From contig JAMLHK010000012.1 in NCBI GenBank assembly GCA_023957155.1, forward strand, positions 62,001 through 126,000: 64,000 bases of DNA. The letters are read 5' to 3'. This document shows positions 43,476 through 63,836 of this stretch, in pieces. Both the position numbers and the translations under genes were made by a program. The first letter of the stretch is position 1; each line of letters opens with the position of its first letter. Under the pieces are notes generated by a model that did not search any database, was not told the DNA's origin, and saw only the letters and a list, made by a program, of their open reading frames with translations. This DNA comes from Chitinophagaceae bacterium (GTDB lineage: Bacteria > Bacteroidota > Bacteroidia > Chitinophagales > Chitinophagaceae).

Positions 43476-43506
43476 AACCAGGCCATTCCGGTCTGGTTTT
43501 TATTTT
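43476..43506 (+). terminator. Intrinsic terminator after gltA
   Basis: AACCAGGCC pairs with GGTCTGGTT (one G-T pair) around the loop ATTCC, followed by a T-rich run. It ends where the -33 element of the tRNA-array promoter begins. Confidence 0.8.
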
Positions 43507-43534
43507 GACAGAACGCATCGGCAATCTATATTTG
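43505..43534 (+). promoter_or_regulatory. Strong consensus promoter of the tRNA-like array
   Basis: TTG (43505-43507), a 19-nt spacer and TATATTTG (43527-43534) match the Bacteroidota consensus fully. Transcription would start near 43541, about 11 nt before the first tRNA-like unit. Confidence 0.7.
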
Positions 43535-43551
43535 CACTCCTGAAAAAGAAA

Positions 43552-43812
43552 CGGGGTTTAGCTCAGCTGGCTGGAGCGTCCCGCGTGCTCGCGGGAAGGT
43601 CACCGGCAAAGAGTTATTTAGAAAAAGCGTTTTTAACAGGGGGTTTAGCTCAGCTGGCTAGAGCGTCCCGCGTGTTCGCGGGAAGGTCACCGGCAAAGAG
43701 TTATTTAGAAAAAGTGTTTTTAACAGGGGGTTTAGCTCAGCTGGTTAGAGCGTCCCGCGTGCTCGCGGGAAGGTCACCGGCAAAGAATTATTTAGAAAAA
43801 GCGTTTTTAACA
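43552..43812 (+). repeat. Three 87-bp tandem tRNA-Ala-like units lacking the 3' part
   Basis: Units start at 43552, 43639 and 43726, and an intact tRNA-Ala starts at 43813, an exact 87-nt period. Each unit has the tRNA-Ala acceptor 5' strand and D-arm (GGGGGTTTAGCTCAGCTGG, first G being C in unit 1). In place of the normal anticodon arm there is a 7-bp hairpin TCCCGCG/CGCGGGA with a 4-nt loop (TGCT or TGTT). AAGGTCACCGG then matches the tRNA again, but the T-loop and 3' acceptor are replaced by an A/T-rich spacer with AAAAAGCGTTTTT. No canonical anticodon loop or closed acceptor can form, so these are not functional tRNAs. Units differ by only a few bases. Confidence 0.85.
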
Positions 43813-43886
43813 GGGGGTTTAGCTCAGCTGGCTAGAGCGTTTGCATGGCATGCAAAAGGTCACCGGTTCGACTCCGGTAACCTCCA
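43813..43886 (+). tRNA. tRNA-Ala (anticodon GGC)
   Basis: A full 74-nt cloverleaf can be drawn. Acceptor GGGGGTT pairs with AACCTCC (one G-T), the D-arm is GCTC/GAGC, and anticodon stem TTTGC/GCAAA encloses loop ATGGCAT, giving anticodon GGC. The variable region is AGGTC, the T-arm ACCGG-TTCGACT-CCGGT and the discriminator A. CCA is not encoded (CACC follows). It is the fourth and only complete member of the 87-nt array. Confidence 0.93.
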
Positions 43887-43893
43887 CACCCCA

Positions 43894-43928
43894 AAGCAAG
43901 GCGGCAATGAACCGGCCTTGCTTTTTTT
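43894..43928 (+). terminator. Intrinsic terminator after tRNA-Ala
   Basis: AAGCAAGGC (43894-43902) pairs perfectly with GCCTTGCTT (43915-43923) and is followed by a T run to 43928. With the promoter at 43505 it defines one transcript of about 390 nt covering all four units. Confidence 0.85.
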
Positions 43929-43936
43929 ATAACAAC

Positions 43937-44953: not shown

Positions 44954-44971
44954 AGCAGAAGCCGCTCTGCT
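44954..44971 (-). terminator. Possible nrdBA terminator hairpin
   Basis: On the minus strand AGCAGA pairs with TCTGCT around GCGGCT, overlapping the nrdA stop codon and followed by TTGTT. The T tract is poor, so this is weak. Confidence 0.3.
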
Positions 44972-46646
44972 ATCCTTCACAACTTTTACAGGTCACCAGG
45001 CTGGTTACCAGCTCTTTTGAAACACTCTGGCTGCGTTGATAATACAACGATTTGATACCCAGCTTCCAGGCTTCTATGATCAGCTTATTCACTTCTTTTA
45101 TGGGTAGCGCAGAAGGAATGTTCAGGTTGAGACTTTGCCCCTGATCCACATACTTTTGCCGGATGGAAGCCTGTTGTATAATTTCAAGCTGACTGATCTC
45201 TTTAAAAGTCTTAAACACTTCCTTTTCATGGTCGCTGAGCCCCTGCAGGTGTTGTACGCTGCCGTGATGTAGCATGATGCTCCGCCAGGTATCTTCATTG
45301 TCCATTCCTTTTTCTTCGAGCAATATCCGGAGATATTTATTCTGCCGCATGAAATTTCCTTTAGACAGTCCTGCCTTGTAATAATTACTGCTATAAGGCT
45401 CTATACCCGGTGAAGTTTGTCCGAGTATCGCGGAGGATGAAGTAGTGGGTGCAATGGCTAACAGGGTGGTATTCCGTTTTCCGTAACCTTTCAACAGGGG
45501 AGGCTCCCCGTATATGTAGGCGAGATCCTGGGTGGCTTTTTCTGCACGTTCCCTGATATTGCCGAATATCTGGTGCGTCAGTTGTTTGGCCTGTAGCCCT
45601 TCAAAAGGGATCATATTCTTCTGCAGGTAAGAATGCCAGCCCAATACGCCAAGTCCTAACGCGCGATGATTCTTGGCGAACCGGTTGGCATTGGCGAGAT
45701 AATAGCTGTCTTCTGTTTTTGCAATAAACTCCTGCATTACGGCATCCAGGAAAAAGACAGCCAGTCGCACCAAATCCGAATCTTTCCATTCATCATACAA
45801 TTCCAGGTTTAAAGAGGAGAGGCAGCATACAAAAGATTCGTCTTCCTTGCTGGGCAGCATGATCTCAGAGCAAAGATTGCTGGCATTGATCACGTAATTA
45901 TAGTCCTTATAAACCTGGGGTCTGTTCCGGTTCACATTATCCGTAAAAAATATATATGGTAAACCTTTTTGTTGCCGGCATTCCAGCAACAAGGCCCAGG
46001 TGTTCCGTTTTTCTACATCTCCGTCAATCATGTCGTGCATCCAGTAGTCGGGTACACATACCCCGAAGAAAAGATTTTGAATAGGGTGCCCGATATTCTT
46101 GATTTGCAAATACTCCTGTATATCCGGGTGATCAATGTCAAGGTAAGCTGCAAATGCCCCGCGCCGTACGCCTCCCTGGGAGATCGTATCCATAGCGGTA
46201 TCGAACAGCCGCATAAAGCTTACCGCCCCGCTGCTTTTCCCGTTATCGGTTACTGCGCTGCCCCGTCCCCGTAGCTGCCCGAAATACCCGGAAGTGCCTC
46301 CTCCTAATTTGGTTTGCATGATTACCTCCCCGAGTTTATAGGTAATGCCTTCAATATTATCCGGAACATGTACATTAAAACAGGAAATAGGTAATCCTCT
46401 TTCCGTACCCATATTGGCCCACACCGGGGAGCTCAGGCTCATCCAGCCCCGTTCTATCATCTCGATAAAGGATTCCTTCAATTCGGGTTTGTACAGCCGC
46501 TGTGCCGCTGCCGAACAAACCCGTTCAATGGCTTTGTTTACCGTTTCTCCTTTAAGCAGGTATCCCCGGTTGAGATGTTGTTCGCTTTCCTCGTTTTTCC
46601 ACCAGTACCTTTCGGTTACCGGCGCTGTAGCAAATATGCTTTCCAT
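44970..46646 (-). CDS. nrdA: Ribonucleoside-diphosphate reductase alpha subunit, minimal class I (class Id-like)
   Basis: This subunit reduces ribonucleotides with radical help from NrdB. At 558 residues it is much shorter than E. coli NrdA (761) and has no N-terminal ATP-cone. The active-site residues are present: C89 in ISCFNVHVP, the N257/C259/E261 motif in NASNLCSEI, a second redox Cys in SFVCCLSS, and the C-terminal shuttle pair C553/C556 (TCKSC). From memory, this minimal architecture matches the class Id alpha subunit of Flavobacterium johnsoniae. It follows nrdB by 20 nt and is under the same cobalamin riboswitch. Confidence 0.95.
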   Translation of the reverse strand: MESIFATAPVTERYWWKNEESEQHLNRGYLLKGETVNKAIERVCSAAAQRLYKPELKESFIEMIERGWMSLSSPVWANMGTERGLPISCFNVHVPDNIEGITYKLGEVIMQTKLGGGTSGYFGQLRGRGSAVTDNGKSSGAVSFMRLFDTAMDTISQGGVRRGAFAAYLDIDHPDIQEYLQIKNIGHPIQNLFFGVCVPDYWMHDMIDGDVEKRNTWALLLECRQQKGLPYIFFTDNVNRNRPQVYKDYNYVINASNLCSEIMLPSKEDESFVCCLSSLNLELYDEWKDSDLVRLAVFFLDAVMQEFIAKTEDSYYLANANRFAKNHRALGLGVLGWHSYLQKNMIPFEGLQAKQLTHQIFGNIRERAEKATQDLAYIYGEPPLLKGYGKRNTTLLAIAPTTSSSAILGQTSPGIEPYSSNYYKAGLSKGNFMRQNKYLRILLEEKGMDNEDTWRSIMLHHGSVQHLQGLSDHEKEVFKTFKEISQLEIIQQASIRQKYVDQGQSLNLNIPSALPIKEVNKLIIEAWKLGIKSLYYQRSQSVSKELVTSLVTCKSCEG

Positions 46647-46666: not shown

Positions 46667-47641
46667 TTAAAACAGGTCCTGGGCGGTAATGCTCTTATCG
46701 TGCTTGGTGTAATCTACCGGTCGTTTCGCAAAAAAATCATCCAGGCTGTTGGCAAATACTTCTTCTTCAAACCACTTCAGGGGTTTGTATTGTTCTGTTG
46801 TAATATGATATACTGCGGGAACGCCTATTTTTTCAAGGCTTTCATCAACCCGGAACTGTATAAAATGAAGCAGGTCATCCCGGCGAATGATATCTAATTC
46901 TCCTGCCTCGAAAATCCAGTCAATAATACGTTCCTCCACCTGCACCGACTCCCTCACCATATTTCCAATATGCTTTATGGTTTCTTCATTCAGTACTTCG
47001 GGGTATTCTTCCCTGATTTTATTGATGAGATAAATTCCTGCATTCGCATGTACCTGTTCATCTATGGAAGTCCAGGCAATAATATTGCTGATATTTTTCA
47101 TCCAGCCTTTGAACCGGGTGAATGAAAGGATGATGGCAAACTGGCTGAAAAGAGAAACGTTTTCAATTAAAATGGTAAACAGTACCAATGCCATGCTGTA
47201 TTCGCGCTTGTCCTCAGACCTGGTGGTACTTAATGCACGGGACAGGTATTCGATACGCTCTTTAATTACAGGCACTTCTATCAGCTTTTCAAATTCATTA
47301 TTATACCCCAGCACTTCCACTAACCTGGAATACGCTTCGGAATGTCTGAACTCACATTCGGCAAAAGTGCTGCCCAACCCGTTCAGCTCCGGCTTGGGAA
47401 AGTGATGGTAAAGATTTCCCCAGAAAGATTTTACGGCAACTTCGATTTGCGCAATGGCAAGCAGGCTGCGCTTTACGGCATTACGTTCTTCCGGTCGGAG
47501 ATGGGAATGAAAATCCTGGGTATCGGCCGTAAAGTCTACTTCGGAATGTACCCAGAACGTACGGTTAATAGCTTCGGTAAACTGGAGTATTTCAGGATAC
47601 TCAAAAGGTTTGTAATTGATCCTCTTTTCAAAAAGTCCCAT
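46667..47641 (-). CDS. nrdB: Ribonucleotide reductase beta subunit, class Id-like (dimanganese)
   Basis: The radical-generating subunit has 324 residues. The metal ligands are E67 (in AIAQIEVAV, where class Ia has Asp), E97 and H100 (EFRHSEAY), the Glu in LIENVSLFS and the Glu/His pair in SIDEQVHANAG. Tyr104 follows H100 by four. E67 and Y104 coincide with the numbering I recall for F. johnsoniae class Id beta, which uses an oxidised Mn2 cluster and leaves the Tyr unmodified. First gene of nrdBA, downstream of a cobalamin riboswitch. Confidence 0.95.
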   Translation of the reverse strand: MGLFEKRINYKPFEYPEILQFTEAINRTFWVHSEVDFTADTQDFHSHLRPEERNAVKRSLLAIAQIEVAVKSFWGNLYHHFPKPELNGLGSTFAECEFRHSEAYSRLVEVLGYNNEFEKLIEVPVIKERIEYLSRALSTTRSEDKREYSMALVLFTILIENVSLFSQFAIILSFTRFKGWMKNISNIIAWTSIDEQVHANAGIYLINKIREEYPEVLNEETIKHIGNMVRESVQVEERIIDWIFEAGELDIIRRDDLLHFIQFRVDESLEKIGVPAVYHITTEQYKPLKWFEEEVFANSLDDFFAKRPVDYTKHDKSITAQDLF

Positions 47642-47751
47642 GACAAAAGATTTAAAAAATAATACCGGCCAGGCATGGCAAACAGGTGGTGCCTGATCAG
47701 TGGTTGTTCACGCCGCAATTGCTTTTCCGCCGAAAGCGATTACCGAAATTA

Positions 47752-47939
47752 TTCCGGCAGGTCTTCTGACTCTCCCGATTTTCTGACACCTTCCCGTCAC
47801 GCTACGAGCGTAACAGTGGCTGTAGTTCCAGAAAATGCAATGCATAATACGCATCGGGATTACAGCTACGGGGATAGCTCCCGGTTTACACGGGATTCCC
47901 TTTTAATGAAAATTCGCCGATGGCGAACTTCAACCGGAA
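47752..47939 (-). promoter_or_regulatory. Cobalamin (B12) riboswitch upstream of nrdBA
   Basis: On the minus strand the conserved 3' B12 box reads GTCAGAAGACCTGCC (complement of 47756-47770). Further 5' are AAAAGGGAATCCCGTG, ACCGGGAGCT, CCCGTAGCTGTAATCCCG and GCCACTGTT, in the order expected for the class. P1 closes as TTCCGG (47934-47939) with CCGGAA (47752-47757). It ends 110 nt before the nrdB ATG. A hairpin GCTTT/AAAGC at 47721-47737 may belong to the expression platform. Cobalamin riboswitches normally repress in the presence of B12. Confidence 0.92.
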
Positions 47940-48161
47940 CAGGATGTAAAATAAAAGACTAAAATGTATTACAGGCGGAATTGTTATACACCGGATGTTG
48001 AAAACCTGCCAAACCGGCTCCCCGTTTCGTTTTTAACTATATGCTTATTTCCGGCGGGCATAAAGCAGATGCTGAAGTATTTTTAACTGCAGCGGCCGGC
48101 AAAGTATAGAAAATATATTCCCCGGCAGGTGGCTTTTTTCCGGGTTTTATGAGTATATAGT

Positions 48162-60760: not shown

Positions 60761-60811
60761 GATTCCTGCCCTTTATGCCCAATTCCTGCCCTTTATGCCC
60801 AATTCCTGCCC
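60761..60811. repeat. 20-bp tandem repeat, about 2.5 copies
   Basis: AATTCCTGCCCTTTATGCCC is repeated (60761-60780 with first base G, 60781-60800, partial 60801-60811), just downstream of the truncated AlbA-type gene on its coding strand. Confidence 0.8.
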
Positions 60812-63234: not shown

Positions 63235-63836
63235 ATGCCCATACTTTTTATAGCCAAAGCACATTTACTTTTCTCTCCTATTCCCTTTCTGTAAAAGAGC
63301 TTTCGGCTACTTCCGCAACAGAAGATTAAAAAATGTTGCCTTAGACTTCTCCCTCACAAAACAATTTTTCAACCCTCTGTAAGTGTGGCTGCCAAAGCCA
63401 CACGGTTAAAAAAAATATTTAAAAATCCAGCGAATTAGAAGTGTTATTTCAATTCACTGTGAACCATTTATCAATGCCATTTTCTCGGCTTCCACATTTT
63501 TTTAATTCAAAGAAGCCTGTATGCACTATTGTCCCATTTCAAGAGCAAAGGTATTTCCGTGTTCTTAACGCATCACAAAGGTCAGGCAAGTTTGGAAAAT
63601 AATCTCCACCCGTTGGGTAGTATTTTTTTCCAAAACCTTGGTGATGCTAAACACGAACCTTTTATGCTCGTGAAACGAAACATAGCATACTCCGGCTCTT
63701 TGGACGAATAAAAAAAATGTCAGTTGTGAAAATTAAAAACATTGAAAATGGTAATGAAACGAAACAGCACCTCCTCTCATTACCGAATAAATCAAAAAAA
63801 ATTAAATCAAATATTAATCACTAAAAATCAACGAAG
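63235..63836. other. Non-coding leader of the element, with hairpins
   Basis: About 600 nt without a convincing gene. A hairpin GTGTGGCT/AGCCACAC (63383-63390 and 63396-63403) lies near the left end. Around 63646-63690 are ATGCT/AGCAT and CACGA/TCGTG inverted pairs. A 60-codon frame with a TTG start exists at 63529-63711 but its reality is doubtful. The last 100 nt are very A-rich and lead to ssb. Confidence 0.5.

Follow-up and report, generated by a model that had tools for sequence, protein, structure and literature searches.

The tandem array of tRNA-like units that precedes a tRNA-Ala gene in the window, the whole stretch of 64,000 nucleotides of a Chitinophagaceae genome that was analysed, is probably what survives of a small mobile element parasitic on tRNA genes: its left end, amplified, with the nuclease lost. 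In its full form, this element would consist of A, M, a remnant and spacer, an intact tRNA, a terminator, a GIY-YIG gene, a second M and B, with A standing for the 5' half and B for the 3' half of a host tRNA gene, and M being the name given to the palindrome TCCCG-N-CGGGA that replaces the anticodon arm. The insert would occupy the former position of the anticodon arm in the host gene, and the cell would survive because the element supplies a complete tRNA. The best reading is that the window holds a left-end-only state with three copies and that a congener, G003, holds the full form; the genus is probably Agriterribacter and G003 probably Agriterribacter humi. No GIY-YIG gene was found near the array among the ORFs or in the sequence of the window, so its place in this model rests on its relatives.

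Anatomy of the array

TRF reports a period of 87 with 3.3 copies and 96% matches at 43553-43840, and the units differ from each other at 3 (units 1 and 2), 3 (units 1 and 3) and 4 (units 2 and 3) of 87 positions; the three near-identical 87-nt units that the first-pass annotation had described are real, and its account of their anatomy was right. Each unit carries, in this order, the acceptor 5' strand and D-arm of a tRNA, a 7-bp hairpin with a 4-nt loop (TCCCGCG TGYT CGCGGGA) in place of the anticodon arm, the sequence AAGGTCACCGG, which represents the variable region and the T-stem 5' strand from the tRNA 3' half, and an A/T-rich spacer (Table 1). The fourth position is, as had been proposed, an intact tRNA-Ala(GGC), found by both ARAGORN and Rfam (64.7 bits). 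It is the sole tRNA called in the window, neither program calling a cloverleaf with an anticodon in the three units, and its mature sequence is identical in five congeners (G001, G003, G005, G010 and G011). When folded as RNA, the units bear the hairpin and form no cloverleaf; their folding is somewhat better than that of shuffled sequences, with z scores of -2.0, -3.5 and -2.7 for units 1, 2 and 3, respectively.

Table 1. Features of the tRNA-Ala array in the window. Positions are counted from the first letter of the window.
Feature	Position	Strand	Basis
Promoter TTGACA-16-TATATT	43505..43532	+	Promoter scan; 11/12 consensus matches
Left unit 1: tRNA-Ala 5' half, M (43579-43596), 3'-half remnant (43596-43606), spacer	43553..43639	+	Sequence, TRF
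Left unit 2: M (43666-43683), 3'-half remnant (43683-43693), spacer	43640..43726	+	Sequence, TRF
Left unit 3: M (43753-43770), 3'-half remnant (43770-43780), spacer	43727..43812	+	Sequence, TRF
Intact tRNA-Ala(GGC)	43813..43887	+	ARAGORN, Rfam
Terminator-like hairpin, 9-bp stem AAGCAAGGC/GCCTTGCTT, 12-nt loop, T-run after	43894..43923	+	Read by eye

The promoter had been described as a full-consensus one, which it is not; it is near-consensus. It can also be read as a Bacteroidota-type promoter, TATATTTG, and the promoter core TATATTTGCA is common to the genomes compared at this locus. The proposed terminator was recovered by eye, with a similar sequence after the tRNA in G010 and G011, and is absent from the list of the terminator scan, which was restricted to loops of 3-8 nt and listed one terminator upstream of the promoter (43476-43498). 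A single transcript across the three units and tRNA-Ala, as the annotation had suggested, is plausible from this arrangement.

A one-off assembly artefact was rejected, since the units are non-identical and other assemblies contain arrays that match, although that of G003 is itself broken by a contig end. The array goes beyond chance, as two other genomes of the same genus carry matching arrays at the same locus. The 115-aa ORF at 43585-43932 was likewise rejected as a protein, being merely a reading of the tRNA units (87 nucleotides are 29 codons).

Elsewhere in the window, a cobalamin riboswitch (47739-47953, minus strand; 93.1 bits, Rfam) lies ahead of the minus-strand ORFs 44970-46646 and 46667-47641, which we take by eye to be ribonucleotide reductase subunits, and the 20-mer ATTCCTGCCCTTTATGCCCA is repeated in tandem at 60762-60811 (2.5 perfect copies, TRF).

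The same locus across the genus

Twelve genomes of the genus were searched, including that of the window (G000), and the citrate synthase region was found in all of them. Downstream of citrate synthase, seven of the twelve have a plain promoter and tRNA-Ala (G001, G004, G005, G006, G009, G010 and G011), three have left arrays (G000, G003 and G007), G002 combines an eroded left unit with a tRNA and a fragment of a GIY-YIG gene, and in the last one, G008, tRNA-Ala is located elsewhere. The element is, in other words, polymorphic for presence and absence at one site. In G003, units and an intact tRNA-Ala are followed by an ORF of 83 aa with a GIY-YIG domain and, directly after its stop codon, by the right end, TAGTGCG-TCCCGCAGGCTTGCGGGA-AGGTC plus the tRNA 3' half. 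The GIY-YIG ORF is the only one between the intact tRNA and the right end, and no integrase is present there. The G003 locus appears to span two adjoining contigs, judging from the array present at both contig ends. Among the genomes that look plain, G006 has a KKMKSWKYIE stretch about 350 bases after the tRNA that resembles, by eye, the C-terminus of the nuclease.

The comparison also bears on the history of the tRNA-Ala gene, which seems to have been exchanged within the genus. Four types of tRNA-Ala(GGC) were distinguished by eye in the 12 genomes, with a mean pairwise identity of 0.875 and a minimum of 0.76, and six other tRNAs, each taken from 4 to 9 of the 12 genomes, have mean identities of 0.93-1.00. 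One outlying type each was found for tRNA-Tyr (G003) and tRNA-Thr(TGT) (G006), which may reflect tRNA swaps other than by the element. G002 is sister to G005 in a citrate synthase DNA tree (support 96/99; two of nine inner branches are firm), and their leader sequences are 0.93 identical, compared with 0.65-0.80 for the others. Its eroded 3' half is of the G005 type and its intact tRNA of the G004/G006 type. The sequence after the tRNA in G002 is 0.78 identical to that of G006, 0.74 to that of G004 and 0.68 to that of G005, with shuffle maxima of 0.70-0.72, and leans weakly toward co-transfer. In G007, the local tRNA is cut short beyond the anticodon arm, and the tRNA-Ala(GGC) that follows it is a different one. 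Our reading is that the tRNA-Ala genes of G002 and G007 were swapped by the element.

Related relics occur at other tRNA genes of G000. Two left units precede tRNA-Thr(GGT) on contig C6 (locus L275, about 63270-63550), followed by an ORF that is presumably EF-Tu, as recognised by eye. On contig C14, tRNA-Asp is accompanied by a left unit with a TCCC...GGGA palindrome, and the GIY-YIG gene after the intact tRNA is cut by the contig end. In the pseudo tRNA-Asp of this contig (L261, first 400 bases, minus strand), the anticodon is intact and TCCCAACCGTAGGTCGGGA follows it, while the D-loop holds a second palindrome; intact tRNA-Asp and the GIY-YIG gene come next. Ten GIY-YIG matches were obtained in the genome at E values up to 1, and none of them was traced to the window array. 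In G003, positions 2010-2295 of locus L266 hold a right-type array with three units after tRNA-Thr(GGT), the last unit of which has a small palindrome, TCCCGAAGATTCGGGA, within the T-arm, as if such palindromes were able to enter other tRNA hairpins also.

Distribution beyond the genus

The units were sought in related genomes with the pattern GAGCNTCCCGN{4,16}CGGGAAGGTC, and the same design was found in 27 of the 147 family genomes sampled and in 15 of 295 from the class, counts from which genuine tRNAs were not filtered out; the reversed control pattern gave no match in either set. At least 118 stretches were obtained in the named genomes scanned with the unit pattern. The collected loci contain 239 distinct pattern matches, and context was defined as a tRNA or a nuclease within 600 bp. 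Before any counting of base pairs, 22 genuine tRNAs and 60 matches lacking such context were removed, which leaves 157 units with 119 distinct loops. These 157 matches fall in up to 103 loci. Of these, 42 come from named Bacteroidota and 36 from the order of the window or closer; 18 belong to ten other phyla, and for 7 the origin is unstated. The ten phyla contribute one to three loci each, with a nuclease gene in only some, and many of these loci come from metagenome bins, in which misbinning is possible.

The recurring order, all on the same strand, is [5' half-M-eroded 3' half-spacer]n, intact tRNA, GIY-YIG gene and [eroded 5' half-M-3' half], and many loci show a partial form of it. The tRNAs that adjoin units or nucleases include those for Ala, Thr, Met, Val, Ile, Arg, Pro, Leu, Lys and Asp. 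The longest runs have eight units; at L067/L179, in another genus of the family, eight units follow tRNA-Thr(GGT) at an exact spacing of 86 bp. The right ends are multiplied at L066, L060 and L117, each with two nuclease copies. The palindrome itself occurs 72 times in the genome of the window, against 12 for the reversed pattern, which is not comparable with hairpins of other use. A separate A/T-rich palindromic stretch, TCAAATTTGAAATTTGAAATTTCAAAT (L044 region, query bases about 205-244), has many matches in the genomes of the genus. A description of such an element was not found in the open-licence literature searched.

Conservation of the tRNA halves and of the palindrome

The halves of each unit were scored against the best-matching intact tRNA nearby. 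This was possible for 125 of the 157 units; the others were set aside for want of a usable intact tRNA, because the flank was short or the context repeated, or because neither half reached 0.7, the last exclusion guaranteeing that one half is alike and leaving free which one it is. With medians taken from one unit per locus, left units have a 5' half at 0.96 and a 3' half at 0.61, the 5' half being the better kept in 37 of 38 loci. Right units have a 3' half at 0.91 and a 5' half at 0.69, and the 3' half is the better kept in 52 of 59 loci; the remaining seven, where the 5' half is better kept, count against the element model. The halves that face outward are kept and those that face inward are decayed. 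Such an asymmetry is expected if an insert has split a single host tRNA gene, and is not expected of a conserved tRNA-like RNA.

The palindrome varies in its inner bases and remains paired. Of 119 distinct loops, 117 have a Watson-Crick first inner pair (38 when shuffled) and none has G-U there (13.5 when shuffled); the second is Watson-Crick in 93 of 106 (33 when shuffled) and G-U in 2 (12.8 when shuffled). The third is less clear, with 23 of 36 Watson-Crick (10.7 when shuffled), 3 G-U (4.4 when shuffled) and 10 of neither kind. The excess of Watson-Crick pairs in loops of varied sequence indicates that compensating changes keep M palindromic; that G-U is so rare at the first two inner pairs points to M acting as DNA rather than as RNA. 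Both inner pairs are alike in the left and right M of the same locus in 13 of 17 loci (4.2 expected) and unlike in the other 4, which, like the less clear third pair, count against the element model.

The GIY-YIG nuclease

When the search started from the nuclease, matches turned up in 47 of the 198 genomes from the order, yielding 30 loci. An upstream tRNA on the same strand, called by ARAGORN and ending within 700 bp of the ORF end, was counted by eye at 24 of the 30 loci, and at 20 by a stricter script. At 24 of the 30 loci, the nuclease domain is followed within 160 nt by the palindrome T[CT]CCG-N-CGG[GA]A, compared with 326 of 4290 control windows. The six loci without the palindrome, and the six (ten by the stricter script) without an upstream tRNA, count against the element model. 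Exact M lies near the stop codon in 34 of the 69 distinct contexts of the nuclease; for 22 of the 34, the stop is the TAG of the tRNA D-loop.

The 83-aa protein of G003 matches PF01541, a known homing nuclease domain, at 1.3e-17, above the cut-off. Its nearest relatives with solved structures are the UPF0213 proteins 1ywl (E 3.8e-6) and 1zg2 (E 1.1e-5), and NCBIfam and PADLOC give weak matches only. Nineteen alignment columns are more than 80% conserved among 66 nuclease proteins, and the median dN/dS is 0.32 (range 0.08-0.67, 16 pairs, some of whose stretches include tRNA-derived extensions), which speaks for selection only moderately. In the nuclease tree, proteins group by tRNA isotype, with 13 changes against 23.4 in shuffled labels and none of 200 shuffles as low; 42 of the 65 rows carried a label. 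At E 1e-5, the nuclease matched none of 50,697 phage records and none of 72,556 plasmid records. Among 25 viral contigs with the unit pattern, only L203 and L205 have both a nuclease and a tRNA nearby, the rest having ordinary tRNAs or nothing. On both grounds, a phage or plasmid element was rejected.

Proposed mechanism and alternative explanations

The element could spread in a homing-like cycle of three steps. First, a tRNA gene would be cut by the nuclease, whose cue is most likely M or the similar anticodon-arm hairpin. Recombination through halves A and B, of about 25-35 bp each, would then copy the element in and replace the local tRNA, a step of which there are sequence traces. Recombination between direct repeats would finally delete the nuclease (B x B) or the left end (A x A), or multiply one end, unequal exchange being able to multiply either; the corresponding end states are seen among the loci, and it is the recombination behind them that we infer. 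One point counts against the model: the intact tRNA of the element keeps its anticodon arm, so that a nuclease directed at the arm should cut the element too.

With somewhat more doubt than confidence, we put forward a broader proposal, namely that these loci may form a distinct class of minimal mobile elements, common in Bacteroidota and also found in several other phyla, that break tRNA genes and supply the replacement. Their ends would be half-tRNA genes plus a palindrome read by their own small GIY-YIG nuclease, perhaps as single-stranded DNA, and they would turn over core tRNA genes and leave tandem pseudo-tRNA arrays as fossils. If this were true, many odd tRNA pseudogenes and small GIY-YIG genes next to tRNA genes would be one and the same element, and abrupt changes in tRNA-Ala sequence between sister species could be explained. 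The element would act as a parasite with an essential gene as its hostage, breaking a tRNA gene and handing back a copy, and the likely target would adjoin each small GIY-YIG gene, making the function of the protein directly testable.

A related account, which we judge rather unlikely, keeps the same element and dispenses with classical homing: M would be a single-stranded DNA site of the nuclease, the element would spread by DNA uptake and ordinary recombination, and nicks at M would drive the gain and loss of units. The near-perfect DNA palindrome with its compensating changes and the lack of phage and plasmid matches for the nuclease agree with it. Single-strand cutting of the kind that it invokes is reported for the Neisseria nuclease Ssn. 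The resemblance of M to the dRS3 repeat, given as ATTCCC(N8)GGGAAT in PMC3898611, speaks for this account, with the reservation that M matches the dRS3 ends inexactly.

That the units are working tRNA-like RNAs is improbable, whether they would act as decoys that bind tRNA-binding proteins, regulate the processing of tRNA-Ala or serve as antitoxin RNAs of the nuclease in the manner of type III systems. The likely shared transcript, the preserved hairpin, the better folding of units 2 and 3 (and less so of unit 1) than of shuffles and the tandem repeats upstream of the nuclease gene in some relatives are what one would cite for it. Each unit, however, keeps only the outward half of the tRNA, which one depending on the side, G-U pairs are few in M, and arrays persist without the nuclease, as in the window; the first two of these features, and the GIY-YIG gene flanked by units elsewhere, weigh against the regulated processing and the sponge that the first-pass annotation had offered as roles. 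Its third suggestion, a non-functional expansion, came nearest, with the qualification that the array appears to be the remnant of a mobile element instead of a chance duplication. Passive duplication, in which slippage or unequal crossing-over at a tRNA gene leaves extra copies to decay with no mobile element involved, would fit near-identical units in exact register and copy numbers that differ between loci. As a general explanation it is very improbable: the same palindrome at the same tRNA position across many isotypes and several phyla, and the association of units with a nuclease gene, make it hard to hold for the whole family, although it could explain the copy number in the window array. 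Least probable of all is the scar of a phage or integrative element with a tRNA gene as its attachment site. The tRNA halves repeated on both sides of the insert do recall attachment sites, but the nuclease is the sole ORF between the intact tRNA and the right end in G003, and the scarcity of element context in viral contigs and the absence of a phage match for the nuclease point the other way.

Comparison with known systems

The UPF0213 proteins of solved structure are relatives of the nuclease as compared by sequence alone. Among GIY-YIG nucleases of described behaviour, Neisseria Ssn is said to read dRS3-type repeats as single-stranded DNA, which, if right, would make a GIY-YIG reader a further likeness between those repeats and M. 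Small GIY-YIG proteins of the Ssn kind have a cognate repeat near their gene; here a palindrome lies near the nuclease gene at 24 of 30 loci, and M is a candidate for the cognate site. Type III toxin-antitoxin systems consist of tandem RNA repeats directly upstream of an endoribonuclease gene. The layout is different in G003, where an intact tRNA lies between and a further unit follows the gene, and in the window, where the array has no nuclease gene.

Some integrative elements use tRNA genes. The element proposed here resembles them in that a tRNA 3' half is repeated at the far end of the insert and an intact tRNA is kept, and it differs in that the G003 form has no integrase, the insert is a few hundred bases long and the 5' half is also repeated on the opposite side. 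That integrative elements leave fragments of tRNA genes behind is noted in PMC9897764.

The dRS3 repeat of Neisseria occurs in about 700 scattered copies (PMC3898611 and PMC3046118). As described there, dRS3/NIME arrays are like M in their TCCC...GGGA ends, variable middle and arrays of short units. M of the window, with its flanks, is GTCCCGCG TGYT CGCGGGAA, in which TCCC...GGGA is kept and the outer bases differ, so that the dRS3 ends ATTCCC/GGGAAT are not matched and the likeness is clear and inexact. Unlike dRS3, M lies inside half-tRNA genes and often adjoins a presumed nuclease gene.

The free-standing GIY-YIG homing endonucleases, especially SegB of phages, share with the proposed element a small GIY-YIG gene that adjoins tRNA genes (PMC13096335). 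According to that paper, a tRNA-Tyr/segB segment is amplified in tandem in a SegB-dependent manner, and the 3' end of segB has microhomology to the 5' end of the tRNA. Compared with SegB, the element of this study is set apart by its location in bacterial chromosomes, its split tRNA genes, the palindrome found at each end and the replacement tRNA carried within.
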